Position numbers and translations under genes: made by a program
Origin: Enemella dayhoffiae
Lineage (GTDB): Bacteria; Actinomycetota; Actinomycetes; Propionibacteriales; Propionibacteriaceae
NCBI RefSeq assembly: GCF_002250625.1
Contig: NZ_NMVQ01000034.1
Location: 216,104 to 280,103 of the forward strand
Reading direction: 5' to 3'
DNA: 64,000 nt
Shown here: positions 55,009-60,611 of the stretch, piece by piece
Position numbering within the stretch: position 1 is the stretch's first letter
Layout: every line of letters starts with the position of its first letter
Notes under the pieces: generated by a model
The model's database searches: none
Told to the model about the DNA's origin: nothing
What the model saw: only the letters and a program-made list of their open reading frames with translations

Positions 55009-55926
55009 TCAGCCCAGACCCAGCACCCGCCGGGTCTCCTCGACGTCGGCACCGATCTGCTCGATCAGCTGCGGGATCCCCTCGAACTTCACGTTCCCCC
55101 GCAGTCGCTGCACGAAGTCGACGCTGACCTGTACGCCGTAGAGCTCGAGGTCGTCGCGGTCGAGCACGTGCGCCTCGACCACCACCTCCGGCACGTCGTC
55201 GAAGGTGGGGTTGGTGCCGACCGAGATGGCGGCCGGCCACAGGGGCGCATTCGGCAGGTCGCAGCGCCGCAACCACCCGGCGTACACCCCGTCCGCGGGA
55301 GCGGCGAACCCCTTCGGGACGGGCAGGTTGGCCGTGGGGAAACCGAACTCGCGGCCGCGCTGGTGGCCCACCACGACCTCGCCGGTGAAGCTGAACAGCC
55401 GGCCCAGGTGCTGGGCGGCGGTGGCCACGTCCCCCTCGGCGAGCAGTCGCCTGATCTCGGTGGAACTGGTGGTGTGGTGCTCGGTGACCAGCAACTCGAG
55501 GACGCTCACCGCAAACGGGCGGGTCCCGTCCAGCCCCTGAGCGCCCAGCTCGGTGAGGGTGTCGACGGTGCCGGCCGCGCGATGCCCGAACCGGAAGTTC
55601 TGTCCCACCACGACCCGCACCGGGTGCAGCGGCAGCAGCTTCTCGCGCACGAAGTCCTCCGGTGAGGTGGCCATCAGTTCCGGGGTGAACCGGATCACCT
55701 CGACCTGGTCGGCGCCGGCCTCGCGCAGCAGGGAGATCCGGTGCGACAGGTCGCACAGCAGCAGCGGCTCCTGGCCCGGACGGACCACCGACATCGGGTG
55801 CGGCCAGAAGGTCACCGCGACCAGTCGCGCACCCGGTTCCGGGGTGCGCGCGGCCCGCAGCACCTCCTGGTGTCCCTTGTGCACGCCATCGAAGTTTCCG
55901 ATGACGACGACGCTGGGCTGATCCAC
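55009..55926 (-). CDS. ribF: Bifunctional riboflavin kinase/FAD synthetase
   Basis: 305 aa. N-terminal FMN adenylyltransferase with VVIGNFDGVHKGHQ and the later VVVGQNFRFGHRAAG; C-terminal riboflavin kinase with GEFGFPTANL-type REFGFPTANLPVP and ISVGTNPTF. Makes FMN and FAD. GTG 55926. Normally follows truB in actinobacteria; here a GH70 gene and an LGFP relic stand between. Confidence 0.95.
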   Translation of the reverse strand: MDQPSVVVIGNFDGVHKGHQEVLRAARTPEPGARLVAVTFWPHPMSVVRPGQEPLLLCDLSHRISLLREAGADQVEVIRFTPELMATSPEDFVREKLLPLHPVRVVVGQNFRFGHRAAGTVDTLTELGAQGLDGTRPFAVSVLELLVTEHHTTSSTEIRRLLAEGDVATAAQHLGRLFSFTGEVVVGHQRGREFGFPTANLPVPKGFAAPADGVYAGWLRRCDLPNAPLWPAAISVGTNPTFDDVPEVVVEAHVLDRDDLELYGVQVSVDFVQRLRGNVKFEGIPQLIEQIGADVEETRRVLGLG

Positions 55927-56102: not shown

Positions 56103-59100
56103 ATGAGATCACCCCGGGTGCCCCGCACCGTGGGCACCGTGGCGCTGGCCGGCGCCGTGCTGTTCGGGCTCACCATCCCGCAGGCCGCCGCCACCCCCAC
56201 GCCTGCGAAGCCGACGGCCACCACCGCGACCCCGCAGGCACCGGCCAAGCCGCGGGCCGACTTCACCAGCTTCGACGACCGGGTGATCTTCCAGTCCTTT
56301 TCGCTGTTCCAGCCCTACGAGTCCAACATGTACGCGAGGCTGGCCGGCCAGACCGGACAGCTGAACTCCTGGGGCGTGACCGACGTCTGGCTGCCGCCCG
56401 CCTACCGCGCCTTCGGCATGTCCCGCTACCTGGAGGGGTACGCCGTCACCGACCGCTACGACCTCGGCGAGTTTCCCCAGGGTCCGAACAACTCGGTGCC
56501 GACCAAGTACGGCACCTCCGCCGAGTTGAAGTCGCTGATGAGCTCCCTGCACGGTGCCAATCTGAAGGGGCAGATGGACCTGGTGCCCAACCAGATGATG
56601 GGCCTCAGCGGTCGGGAGGCGGTGACCGCGACCCGGACCGACCGCAACGGCGCGCTCTACGTCGGGAAGGACGGCCAGAAGACCGACTTCATCAACCAGA
56701 TGTACCTCCCCTACACCAGGGGCGGCGGCCAGGGCCAGGCGCAGTATGGCGCGATCAAGGAGTTCAACAAGTCCCACTGGAACGGCACCTCGCTGCAGGA
56801 GATCGGGTTCGGGGACACGCTCAAGGACGCTACCGGGAAGCCCTACCGGGTCGATCAGACCGACCCCGCCGCCAACAACGTGCCGGCGTGGATGAACCCG
56901 AGTCTCGGCCACAACCAGGTCGACGGCTATCTGTCGGCGCGAGAGGCCTACGAGCTCTCGCCGGGCAACTGGCGGCCCTACCTGGTGAATGACCCGAACT
57001 TCGTCACCTACGCCACCAAGAAGTGCGGCTTCGCCGACGAGACGGCCGTCAAGACCGGCACCGGCTCGAAGTCCATCTGGGACTGCCGGGACGCGTTCAT
57101 CGACCCGCGCCAGGACTACAAGGCCAACCCGGAGGCGCTGCCCGGGATCAAGTACAACTACTGGGGCGAGCAGCCGTCGGTGGAGAACTCGTTCACCGGC
57201 ATTGACGATCACGACGAGATCCTGTTCGCCGGCCACACACGGTTGAACGACAACATGATCTCGGCCCACGGGTTCCTGGTGGGCAACGACTTCGACAACG
57301 CGCGCGCCGACGTGCAGGCAGAGCAGCGGCACTGGGTGCAGTGGCTGTTGAACCAGTACGGGTTCGACGGCTTCCGCGTCGACGCCGCCGCCCACTTCCC
57401 CACCGCGATCCTCGACATGGTCTCCCAGGAGACCGCGAAGAAGTTCAACAACGACCCCAGCCGCTATCTCGACTATCTCGAGACGTACTACAACGGCGCA
57501 CAGAACGCCTACGTCGACAGCACCGGAAATCGGGCCCTGGCGATGGATTCGGCGAACTTCAACGCCATGAACGACTCGCTGTCGGGCACCGCCCCGGTCG
57601 GCAACATCTACCGCAACTCGGACGCCAACGTGACCGGCTCCCGGGCGACCGGCGGCAGCTATCGACCCAACTGGTCCTTCTCCAACAACCACGACCAGGA
57701 GAAGCACTGGCTGAACTACATCCTGTTCAAGCAGCTGGGCATCACCAACTACTGCACCGGCGGGCCGACCGTCTGCAAGTCGTTCACCCTGGACTGGACA
57801 CCCGAGGCGGAGCGTCAGGCGCTGCTCGAATGGAACGCCGACCTGGACCGTCCGAGCAGCCAGAAGAAGACGTCGCCGAAGAACGTGCCGGCACGTTACG
57901 CGGCGATGCTGACCAACAAGGCCACCACGCCCACCGTGTACTACGGCGACCTCTACCGCACCAACGGCTCCTACATGACCGAGAAGACGCCCTATTTCGA
58001 CGAGATCGACAACCTGCTGAAGGCGCGCAAGTCCTACGCCAAGGGTGACCAGAAGGTTTACGACTTCGGCAACGACCTGAGCGCCAGCGTACGCACGGGC
58101 CTGGACCGGGCGACCGGGCTGGCCACCGTGATCAGCAACAACCCGGCCATCAACCGGAGCATCCGGGTGGACATGGGACGCGATCACACCAACCAGAGCT
58201 ATCGCGACGTCACCGGCAAGAACACTCAGGTGCTGACCACCGACGGCCAGGGCATCCTCACCGTGCCGGTGAAGGGGTCAGACTCCACGCCCGAGGTGTC
58301 CGGTTATCTGGGAGTGTGGGCTCCGGTGGACACGGTGACGCAGAAGCTGACCCACGGTGCGATCGACGCCAAATGGCAGGCTGACAAGGCGATCCTGGGG
58401 CAGCCGACCTCGCCGGAGAACTGCTTCCTGCGCGACGGTGGCTGCTTCCAGACCTTCGAGCGAGGCACGATCTATTGGTCGCCGGCGACCGGCGCGCACT
58501 GGGTCCGCGGCGCGATCATGCAGAAGTGGGGCCAGCAGGGCTGGGAGAACGGATGGCTCGGCTATCCCACCACCGATGAGAATTGTGGCCTGCGCAACGG
58601 CGGCTGCTGGCAGGGATTCCAGGGTGGGTTGATCTATTGGGCGCCGGCCACCGGAGCCTGGTCGGTCAAGGGTCGGATCCTGGATGCCTATGCCAACCAG
58701 GGTTGGGAAACCTCGCGGCTCGGTTATCCGATCTCGGACGAGATCTGCGGTCTTCGTGATGGCGGGTGTGTCAGCCGGTTCCAGGGTGGCCTGATCTACT
58801 GGTCGCCGGCCACCGGTGCCGGCGTGGTGCTGGGTGCGATCCAGGGGGCGTACGCCGCCCAGGGCTGGGAGACCGGGATCGGTTATCCGCTGGGGAATGA
58901 GGCGTGCGGGCTGCGGGATGGCGGCTGCCTGCAGCACTTCCAGTACGGCAGCATCTACTACTCCCCCGCGACCGGTGCCCAGGTGGTCAAGGGTGCGATC
59001 AAGGACGCCTGGGCCAGCCAGGGCTGGGAAACCGGGCGCCTCGGTTACCCGACCACGGGAGAGCAGTGCAACGCGGCCGGCAACGACTGCGTGCAGTACT

Positions 59101-59153
59101 ACCAGGGCGGCCGGATCACCTGGAACGCCGCCACGGGCAGCAGAATCTGGTGA
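56103..59153 (+). CDS. Secreted GH70-type glucansucrase-like enzyme with five LGFP repeats
   Basis: 1016 aa. Signal peptide (TVGTVALAGAVLFGLTIPQAAA), catalytic module, and five C-terminal LGFP repeats from about residue 748, each with a Cys pair (CGLRDGGC) and SPATGA; LGFP repeats bind cell-wall glycan. GH70 marks: MDLVPNQMMGL with VTATR (motif I, Asp159), GFRVDAAAH (nucleophile Asp427), DYLETYYNGA (acid/base Glu460), NNHDQE (Asp531), and GNDFDNARADVQAEQ before the nucleophile. Motif order is I-II-III-IV, i.e. not circularly permuted, like GtfC/GtfD-type alpha-glucanotransferases. Ribosome site AGGAGAAG. Donor (sucrose or starch) unknown. Confidence 0.85.
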   Translation: MRSPRVPRTVGTVALAGAVLFGLTIPQAAATPTPAKPTATTATPQAPAKPRADFTSFDDRVIFQSFSLFQPYESNMYARLAGQTGQLNSWGVTDVWLPPAYRAFGMSRYLEGYAVTDRYDLGEFPQGPNNSVPTKYGTSAELKSLMSSLHGANLKGQMDLVPNQMMGLSGREAVTATRTDRNGALYVGKDGQKTDFINQMYLPYTRGGGQGQAQYGAIKEFNKSHWNGTSLQEIGFGDTLKDATGKPYRVDQTDPAANNVPAWMNPSLGHNQVDGYLSAREAYELSPGNWRPYLVNDPNFVTYATKKCGFADETAVKTGTGSKSIWDCRDAFIDPRQDYKANPEALPGIKYNYWGEQPSVENSFTGIDDHDEILFAGHTRLNDNMISAHGFLVGNDFDNARADVQAEQRHWVQWLLNQYGFDGFRVDAAAHFPTAILDMVSQETAKKFNNDPSRYLDYLETYYNGAQNAYVDSTGNRALAMDSANFNAMNDSLSGTAPVGNIYRNSDANVTGSRATGGSYRPNWSFSNNHDQEKHWLNYILFKQLGITNYCTGGPTVCKSFTLDWTPEAERQALLEWNADLDRPSSQKKTSPKNVPARYAAMLTNKATTPTVYYGDLYRTNGSYMTEKTPYFDEIDNLLKARKSYAKGDQKVYDFGNDLSASVRTGLDRATGLATVISNNPAINRSIRVDMGRDHTNQSYRDVTGKNTQVLTTDGQGILTVPVKGSDSTPEVSGYLGVWAPVDTVTQKLTHGAIDAKWQADKAILGQPTSPENCFLRDGGCFQTFERGTIYWSPATGAHWVRGAIMQKWGQQGWENGWLGYPTTDENCGLRNGGCWQGFQGGLIYWAPATGAWSVKGRILDAYANQGWETSRLGYPISDEICGLRDGGCVSRFQGGLIYWSPATGAGVVLGAIQGAYAAQGWETGIGYPLGNEACGLRDGGCLQHFQYGSIYYSPATGAQVVKGAIKDAWASQGWETGRLGYPTTGEQCNAAGNDCVQYYQGGRITWNAATGSRIW

Positions 59154-59330: not shown

Positions 59331-59720
59331 ATGATGCGTCGCCTGCTGGTCACCGCCACCGTCGGCGTCAGCCGCACGTTCCGGGCCGGTGACCAGCCCG
59401 CGCGAAACCCCGGCACCCACGGCCGCTGGGAGGCCCACCACCCCCACCTCACCCAGCCCGGCTCCGGTGTCCCCGATCCAGCAGACCTGGCTCAGCAACC
59501 AGTGGTTGGGGGAACCGGTCGGCCAGGAATCCTGCGGACTGCGCGGTCGCCGGCCAGAAGGCGGACGGCCCCCCGTCGTGGGCGCCAGCTACCTCCGGTG
59601 GGACGACCTGCACCGAGTGAGTGCTTCCAGCTGTTCCAGGCCGAGCGCCGGTGTCACCAGGGCTTCCAGGGTGGTTGGATCGAGTGGTCCGACCGGTCCG
59701 GGATCCGCGCCAGCCGCTGA
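59331..59720 (+). pseudogene. Relic of a secreted LGFP-repeat protein
   Basis: Starts MMRRLLVTATVGVSRT (signal-like), then loses frame. In the neighbouring frame QQTWLSNQWLGEPVGQESC and CGLRG resemble an LGFP repeat; later CHQGFQGGWIEWSDR in the first frame resembles the next repeat's FQGG motif. At least two frame changes, so not functional. Likely a decayed paralogue of the upstream LGFP protein. Ends exactly at truB's stop. Confidence 0.65.
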
Positions 59721-60611
59721 TCAGCAGAAGACGGCCTCGGCCTTGGCACCTGCTGGTTCGGTTTCGTCCGCGGCGTACAGGGCCAGGAACTTGCCGTCGT
59801 GCATCATCGCGGTGAGCGCATCGAGGCGTACGCCGGAAAGCTTCTGTCCATAGGAGATCGCGCGGGCCTGCGCCTGGTCGAGCTCGAGGGTCGGGAAGCA
59901 CTCGGCGGCCACCTCGTCGATCCCGATCAGCGACACCTCATCGGTACCGTGGTCGACCACCTGGGCCCGGTCCAGCGCGAACGGACCGACCCGGGTACGC
60001 CGCAGCGCCGTCAGGTGTCCCCCGCAGCCGAGCGCGGCCCCCAGGTCGCGGGCCAGCGCCCGGATGTAGGTTCCCGAGGAGCAGCGCACGCGGACCCGCA
60101 GATCCAGCACGGGGACTCCGTCAGACTCGGCGGTTTCGCTGCCCAGCAAGGCGAATTCGCTCACCGTGACCGGCCGCGCCCTCAGCTCGACCTCCTCCCC
60201 GGCCCGCATGCGGGCGTACGCCCGTTTGCCGTCGATCTTGATGGCCGACACCGCCGTCGGCACCTGCTGGATCTCACCGCGAAACGGCTGCATCGCCTGT
60301 TCCAGCACGGAATGCTCGAGCGGCCCACAGCCCGGGCGAGCAGTGCCCTCCCCCTCGGCGTCGTCGGTGACGGTCGACTCACCCAGCCGGATCGTGGCGG
60401 CGTACTCCTTCTCGGTCAGCATCAGGTGACCGAGCAGCCGGGTCGCCCGGTTCACCCCGACCAGCAGCACCCCGGTCGCCATCGGATCGAGGGTGCCAGC
60501 GTGCCCCACCTTGCGGGTGCCGAGCAGTCGGCGGCACCGGCCCACCACCTGGTGGGAGGTCCACCCGGCCGGCTTGTCGACGACCAGGACGCCGGACTCG
60601 ACGGCCGTCAC
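59721..60611 (-). CDS. truB: tRNA pseudouridine-55 synthase TruB
   Basis: Modifies uridine-55 in tRNA T-loops, 296 aa. [17 protein letters not shown], catalytic Asp in [29 protein letters not shown] 60611 overlaps the rbfA stop (GTGA). Downstream of rbfA as in many bacteria. Confidence 0.95.

Follow-up and report, generated by a model that had tools for sequence, protein, structure and literature searches.

In a 64,000-nucleotide stretch of the Enemella dayhoffiae genome (assembly GCF_002250625.1, contig NZ_NMVQ01000034.1, positions 216,104 to 280,103; hereafter the window), one gene encodes a glycoside hydrolase family 70 (GH70) enzyme of non-permuted motif order with five LGFP repeats at its C terminus. 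Judged from its sequence, the product is probably a secreted, tunnelled 4,6-alpha-glucanotransferase of a separate lineage that is likely to be retained at the cell wall. By analogy with the solved GtfC and GtfB enzymes, the substrate (starch, glycogen or maltodextrin) would lie in a tunnel beneath loops A1 and B, where Asp427 would attack one of its alpha-1,4 bonds; the enzyme-bound glucosyl (or maltosyl) unit would then be transferred to the 6-OH of a second chain, and the product would be a largely linear alpha-1,4/alpha-1,6 glucan. The LGFP array, if it behaves as in mycoloyltransferase A (MytA), may keep the enzyme, and perhaps its product too, at the wall.

The combination of GH70 and LGFP is already published. 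In the accessible part of its text, PMC11299179 (2024) describes GH70 enzymes from three Propionibacteriaceae (entries 257-259: Propioniferax innocua, Enemella evansiae and a Naumannella) that are non-permuted and have conserved Cys pairs as well as five LGFP repeats, files them as GtfD and proposes, by analogy to MytA, that LGFP enzymes interact with the wall. Our full-text literature search for the combination found this paper alone; the original prediction, made from the DNA letters, had called the combination uncommon and did not mention it. Two of the three published species, matched by species rather than by accession, are present in our set of 13 LGFP-bearing enzymes (E. evansiae, P0004; P. 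innocua, L036). What is new here is a tested objection to the subfamily assignment, a Cys pair in loop A1 and the use of the LGFP module across the genome.

Domain architecture and the LGFP array

The open reading frame (56103-59153, + strand) runs uninterrupted from ATG to stop and encodes 1016 amino acids, in which Pfam places a GH70 core followed by the LGFP array. Residues 1-31 (56103..56195) form a likely Sec signal peptide with a basic start, a hydrophobic stretch and AAA before TP, its boundary set by eye; in the predicted structure, residues 1-47 have a predicted local distance difference test (pLDDT) score below 50. The core comprises domains A, B, IV and C (residues 56-742, 56268..58328), and its structural model matches GtfC (7zc0) over 673 residues. 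The Pfam matches are far beyond chance: Glyco_hydro_70 is found in two stretches (E = 6.7e-49; 167.2 bits against a curated cut-off of 24) and LGFP (PF08310) in five, above cut-off and resembling the stalk of MytA (E = 1e-94).

The catalytic motifs stand in the order I-II-III-IV, as the original prediction had read them: Asp159 (MDLVPNQ, 56577..56579), Asp427 (DGFRVDAAAH, 57381..57383), Glu460 (YLETYYN, 57480..57482, with Tyr462 two residues on) and Asp531 (NNHDQEK, 57693..57695). By alignment, the last three correspond to D413, E446 and D517 in the Geobacillus GtfC, as nucleophile, acid/base and transition-state stabiliser, respectively. The flanking stretches quoted in that prediction, VPNQ...VTATR and GNDFDNARADVQAEQ, are likewise present in the sequence. 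Alignment further delimits loop A2 (residues 104-114, 56412..56444, FGMSRYLEGYA), whose 11 residues are of alpha-glucanotransferase length, a loop B region of 33 residues (355-387, 57165..57263) and a loop A1 region of 27 residues (544-570, 57732..57812). Domain IV, aligned to GtfC 223-332, covers 113 residues (about 239-351, 56817..57155, ends approximate).

Two Cys pairs that the original prediction lacked lie within the core and are predicted to form disulfides. Cys308/Cys328 of domain IV occupy columns that are invariant in 12/12 LGFP enzymes in the alignment, and Cys551/Cys558 of loop A1 occur in only 5 of the 13 (P0001-P0005, the window enzyme among them); a disulfide between the latter two, if formed, would stiffen the tunnel lid. 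The five C-terminal repeats, also correctly foreseen together with their Cys pairs, lie at 58395..58553 (found by Pfam and by LGFP profile search) and, by the profile search, at 58557..58712, 58719..58877, 58881..59036 and 59040..59144, the fifth being a shorter match (profile 1-35). Each repeat has one pair (774/781, 828/835, 882/889, 935/942 and 989/996).

LGFP repeats are greatly expanded in the same genome, which holds 107 matches on many contigs, falling into about 22 frames besides the GH70 gene when grouped by eye. Pfam searches of 16 of these frames gave six wall-acting partners (glucosaminidase, CHAP, lytic-transglycolase-type DPBB, amidase_2, the L,D-transpeptidase domain YkuD and, counted among the six, polysaccharide deacetylase), five others (5'-nucleotidase, GSDH/PKD, GH16, B_lectin and exo/endo-phosphatase) and five frames with no partner. 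This range of partners fits a general wall-display module. According to the part of PMC11299179 that is accessible, the LGFP domains of MytA interacted with peptidoglycan-arabinogalactan. Were the array instead to bind the glucan, as substrate or product, the enzyme would be released; other GH70 enzymes do bear glucan-binding domains (PMC12375890, in the portion available), and the 16 scanned proteins include one with a GH16 and one with a lectin domain. We regard this as unlikely, given the same array on glucosaminidase, CHAP, lytic-transglycolase-type, amidase and L,D-transpeptidase domains and the behaviour of the MytA domains.

Since MytA LGFP domains interact with peptidoglycan-arabinogalactan, we examined the association of LGFP with PF04602, the family of EmbC-type arabinosyltransferases. 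A gene of this type (PF04602 plus the EmbC C-terminal domain) lies outside the window, at G000 contig C34:60556-61929 (L140:3564-6485, - strand), next to a glycogen-phosphorylase-like gene, and suggests arabinan in the wall; nothing usable came of a literature search on wall sugars in Enemella and Propioniferax. Within the family the link is strong: PF04602 occurs in 7/198 genomes, in 5/5 of those with at least 31 LGFP matches (the most that search scored) and in 2/193 others, kinship ignored. The class and phylum genomes are samples. Among the 384 sampled from the class, again ignoring kinship, LGFP is found in 37 of the 38 genomes with PF04602 and also in 102 of the 346 without it; 35 of the 38 come from one family (f4), outside which LGFP is found in 2/3. 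Across the class the link is not exclusive, and PF04602 is present in 5 of the 10 genomes in this sample with at least 14 LGFP matches (of at most 17 scored).

Placement beside GtfC and GtfD

To place the enzyme, we aligned 13 LGFP, 14 GtfC, 24 GtfD and 9 other non-permuted enzymes, against the background of a protein search in which 7988 candidates were scored and the best 120 of 1627 matches considered; we assigned the GtfC and GtfD groups ourselves, going by characterised members and by where rows fall in the trees. The loop A1 region (Geobacillus GtfC, GbGtfC, 530-556) has 27-30 residues in 13/13 LGFP and 27-28 in 14/14 GtfC enzymes but 14-15 in 24/24 GtfD enzymes, and the loop B region (GbGtfC 336-373) has 31-33, 38 and 22-27 residues, respectively. 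Motif IV reads HDQEK in 11/13 LGFP and 14/14 GtfC enzymes. Mean identity is 47.1% between LGFP and GtfC, 40.8% between LGFP and GtfD and 46.7% between GtfC and GtfD.

The published label, GtfD, would imply that the groove is more open and that the product is branched, as in reuteran. PMC11299179 gives it, in its accessible text, to three species, two of them in our set, and identity values lend it some weight: the 13 LGFP enzymes share 44.5-49.8% core identity with Geobacillus GtfC (45.5% for the window enzyme), inside the 40.4-49.9% that the available text of PMC9732880 gives for the GtfD group, although the regions compared may differ. That source gives 52.9-76.3% for GtfC, so the window enzyme lies below the GtfC band; measured in the same way, the 13 other GtfC enzymes of our set reach 61.1-79.6%. 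The same text states that loop A1 seems to have become shorter in the evolution of GtfD enzymes and that those of the GtfC group retain a tunnel formed by loops A1 and B. By sequence alignment, the window enzyme has a GtfC-like loop A1 of 27 residues, not the short one of GtfD, and a loop B region of 33 residues against 38 in GtfC.

Three trees of hand-chosen rows, rather than of every match, were built with care; in all of them P0010 was replaced by the near-identical L036. In the rooted tree (55 rows, 507 columns; five GH13_5 outgroup rows, permuted enzymes re-ordered, loop A1 excluded), the LGFP clade (12 rows, support 98/96), joined by the long metagenomic row P0029 (89/81), is excluded from a group, supported at 100/98, that unites GtfC, P0026, permuted enzymes and GtfD. 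P0029 was left out of the other two trees. In the 41-row tree, restricted to LGFP, GtfC, GtfD and permuted enzymes and resembling the published sampling only in the absence of GH13 rows, LGFP is sister to GtfC (95/89). In the 43-row tree, with non-permuted enzymes only (631 columns, domain IV included, both loops excluded), LGFP (100/100) again stands apart, while GtfC, P0026 and GtfD group together at 99/97. An earlier quick tree of 51 rows concurs with the 55-row tree. GtfD closes without LGFP in all three careful trees (100/98, 100/99 and 100/100), and LGFP nests inside GtfC in none.

We reject the published label as it stands on the loop lengths, which do not fit GtfD, and on the three trees, all of which place LGFP outside it, though approximately unbiased (AU) tests allow a union of LGFP and GtfD in two of the three trees; the greater identity of LGFP enzymes to GtfC than to GtfD points the same way, and we think a GtfD-type enzyme quite improbable. 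By descent the LGFP clade is likely to be a separate lineage beside GtfC. Whether it appears as sister to GtfC or as an earlier branch depends on the sampling and on the long outgroup. More tentatively, the LGFP enzymes might be a third non-permuted GH70 subfamily, branching off earlier than the divergence among GtfC, GtfD and the permuted enzymes, that keeps an ancestral tunnel lid, pinned by a disulfide in some members; in this actinomycete with an EmbC-type arabinosyltransferase, such an enzyme would relink starch while displayed on the wall.

Two further groups of non-permuted enzymes were seen in the same set. A metagenomic clade (P0028, P0030, P0036, P0039 and P0042; 99/86) forms the deepest branch of the rooted tree; its loop B region has 36 residues, and in 4/5 loop A1 is intermediate, at 21. 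A second group, at least partly actinobacterial (P0047-P0049, P0052, P0053 and P0055-P0058, from Frigoribacterium, Nocardioides and others), is of GtfD type by its loops and carries other C-terminal domains.

Enzyme class and donor substrate

Membership of GH70 is indicated by the Glyco_hydro_70 score, by a domain IV inserted in domain B and by the rooted tree, in which a 100/100 branch separates 50 GH70 rows from the five of GH13_5. The original prediction had held the enzyme to be GH70-like rather than ordinary GH13 and had named a tree as the check; the window enzyme does not fall inside GH13_5. Alpha-glucanotransferases often retain some hydrolysis. The alternative of a GH13_5-type alpha-amylase that hydrolyses and only looks like GH70 also has on its side the NCBIfam matches, all five of which are PRK09441 alpha-amylase models far under cut-off (best 166.9 against 382 bits), and the GH13_5-type amylase folds that come next among the PDB matches. 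We reject a plain GH13_5 amylase as very improbable: the branch separating the GH13_5 rows stands against it, as do the 113-residue domain IV, the GH70 loops and the Pfam scores (6.7e-49 for Glyco_hydro_70 against 8.6e-10 for Alpha-amylase).

For the donor, the accessible text of PMC11299179 gives two markers: loop A2 has 16-21 residues in sucrases and 11 in starch-acting enzymes, and the residue two past the acid/base is Trp or small in sucrases and usually Tyr in starch-acting enzymes. A loop A2 of 11 residues and the Tyr are found in 13/13 LGFP enzymes in the alignment, as expected of the alpha-glucanotransferases GtfB, GtfC and GtfD. Because its loop A2 has 11 residues and it has Tyr462, the window enzyme most likely uses an alpha-1,4-glucan, not sucrose. 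The original prediction is partly supported: it was right about a non-permuted GH70 enzyme that may act on starch; the sucrose-using glucansucrase of its title, for which speak GH70 stretches (such as DN....VQAE and VTxTR-like motifs) common to permuted enzymes, is rejected as wildly improbable, since the permuted order II-III-IV-I, the long loop A2 and the motif III Trp are all absent and permuted enzymes form a clade of their own in the 55-row and 41-row trees. We infer the linkage specificity, which the sequence does not fix.

Several points weigh against a wall-held 4,6-alpha-glucanotransferase of separate descent. A 4,3-alpha-glucanotransferase is reported within GH70 (PMC5216370, in its accessible part), and the acceptor-site positions align here as T365, I367, H389 and H431, with a T/I combination at the first two that is seen in 0/14 GtfC enzymes. 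Our literature search found no measured activity for any LGFP-bearing GH70 enzyme, and wall binding of the array is argued by analogy only. On descent, a union of LGFP and GtfD is rejected by the AU test in the 55-row tree (p 0.022) but survives in the 41-row (p 0.074) and 43-row (p 0.067) trees; a union with GtfC is rejected in the 55-row tree (p 0.0088), not in the 43-row tree (p 0.085), and is a clade in the 41-row tree. The root itself depends on a long outgroup branch (2.05 changes per column).

Genomic setting, significance and known relatives

The GH70 gene sits between ribF (riboflavin kinase/FAD synthetase, 55009..55926, - strand) and truB (tRNA pseudouridine synthase, 59721..60611, - strand), both identified by Pfam, and holds the same position in G218 of the same genus. 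In G219, a congener with no GH70, the truB-ribF gap is about 1 kb (L137:4459-5450) and holds a voltage-gated ion-channel-like frame, judged by eye; the contigs of G220 and G221 end within ribF. What this gap in a housekeeping cluster holds thus varies between genomes. In G313, the GH70 core was the sole match in 18 kb among eight window proteins searched. GH70 occurs in 3/198 family genomes and 2/5 of the genus (the window's own counted; one genus genome is 87% complete), and this patchy spread suggests an accessory gene that has been gained or lost; the gene has a G+C content of 65.8%, compared with 69.3% in the window. Downstream, at 59389-59720, two overlapping frames each carry part of an LGFP-like stretch (WLGEPVGQESCGLR; CHQGFQGGWIEW), which looks like a decayed LGFP gene, although the Pfam LGFP family was matched in neither frame. 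By eye, no signal peptide was found in seven of the genome's nine GH13 reading frames, those with a clear frame; as the frames of L022 and L029 could not be settled, we do not claim that the window enzyme alone among the alpha-glucan enzymes is secreted.

GH70 is well known as an example of circular permutation in enzyme evolution, and it supplies enzymes that modify starch for low-glycaemic food. Should the LGFP clade be an early non-permuted branch with a tunnel, that tunnel would be older than the divergence of GtfC, GtfD and permuted enzymes, and the short loops of GtfD would reflect a later loss; a new set of enzymes, possibly stiffened by disulfides, would also become available for assay, and the published subfamily label would need correction. 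An enzyme that relinks starch while held at the wall would suggest a route to an actinomycete alpha-glucan coat without sucrose.

Among known systems, the nearest are the Propionibacteriaceae enzymes of PMC11299179, which, in its accessible text, share the core, the five C-terminal LGFP repeats, the conserved Cys pairs and the family of origin; they are the same kind of protein, and only the subfamily label is disputed, the loops and trees being unlike GtfD. The E. evansiae protein P0004 is 69% identical over residues 50-740. Compared with the 4,6-alpha-glucanotransferase GtfC of Geobacillus 12AMOR1 (7zc0), the window enzyme has LGFP repeats in place of two Ig-like domains, a loop B region five residues shorter, extra Cys pairs, and T/I/H/H rather than T/V/Y/H at the acceptor positions. 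Paenibacillus beijingensis GtfD (P0034; 43.3% identity) is also non-permuted, with a loop A2 of 11 residues and the motif III Tyr, but differs in loop A1 (15 residues), loop B (22), domain IV (125) and motif IV (HDQEH). MytA of Corynebacterium glutamicum (6sx4) shares the LGFP module on a different catalytic domain, and its repeats, according to the available part of PMC11299179, are without the Cys pairs.
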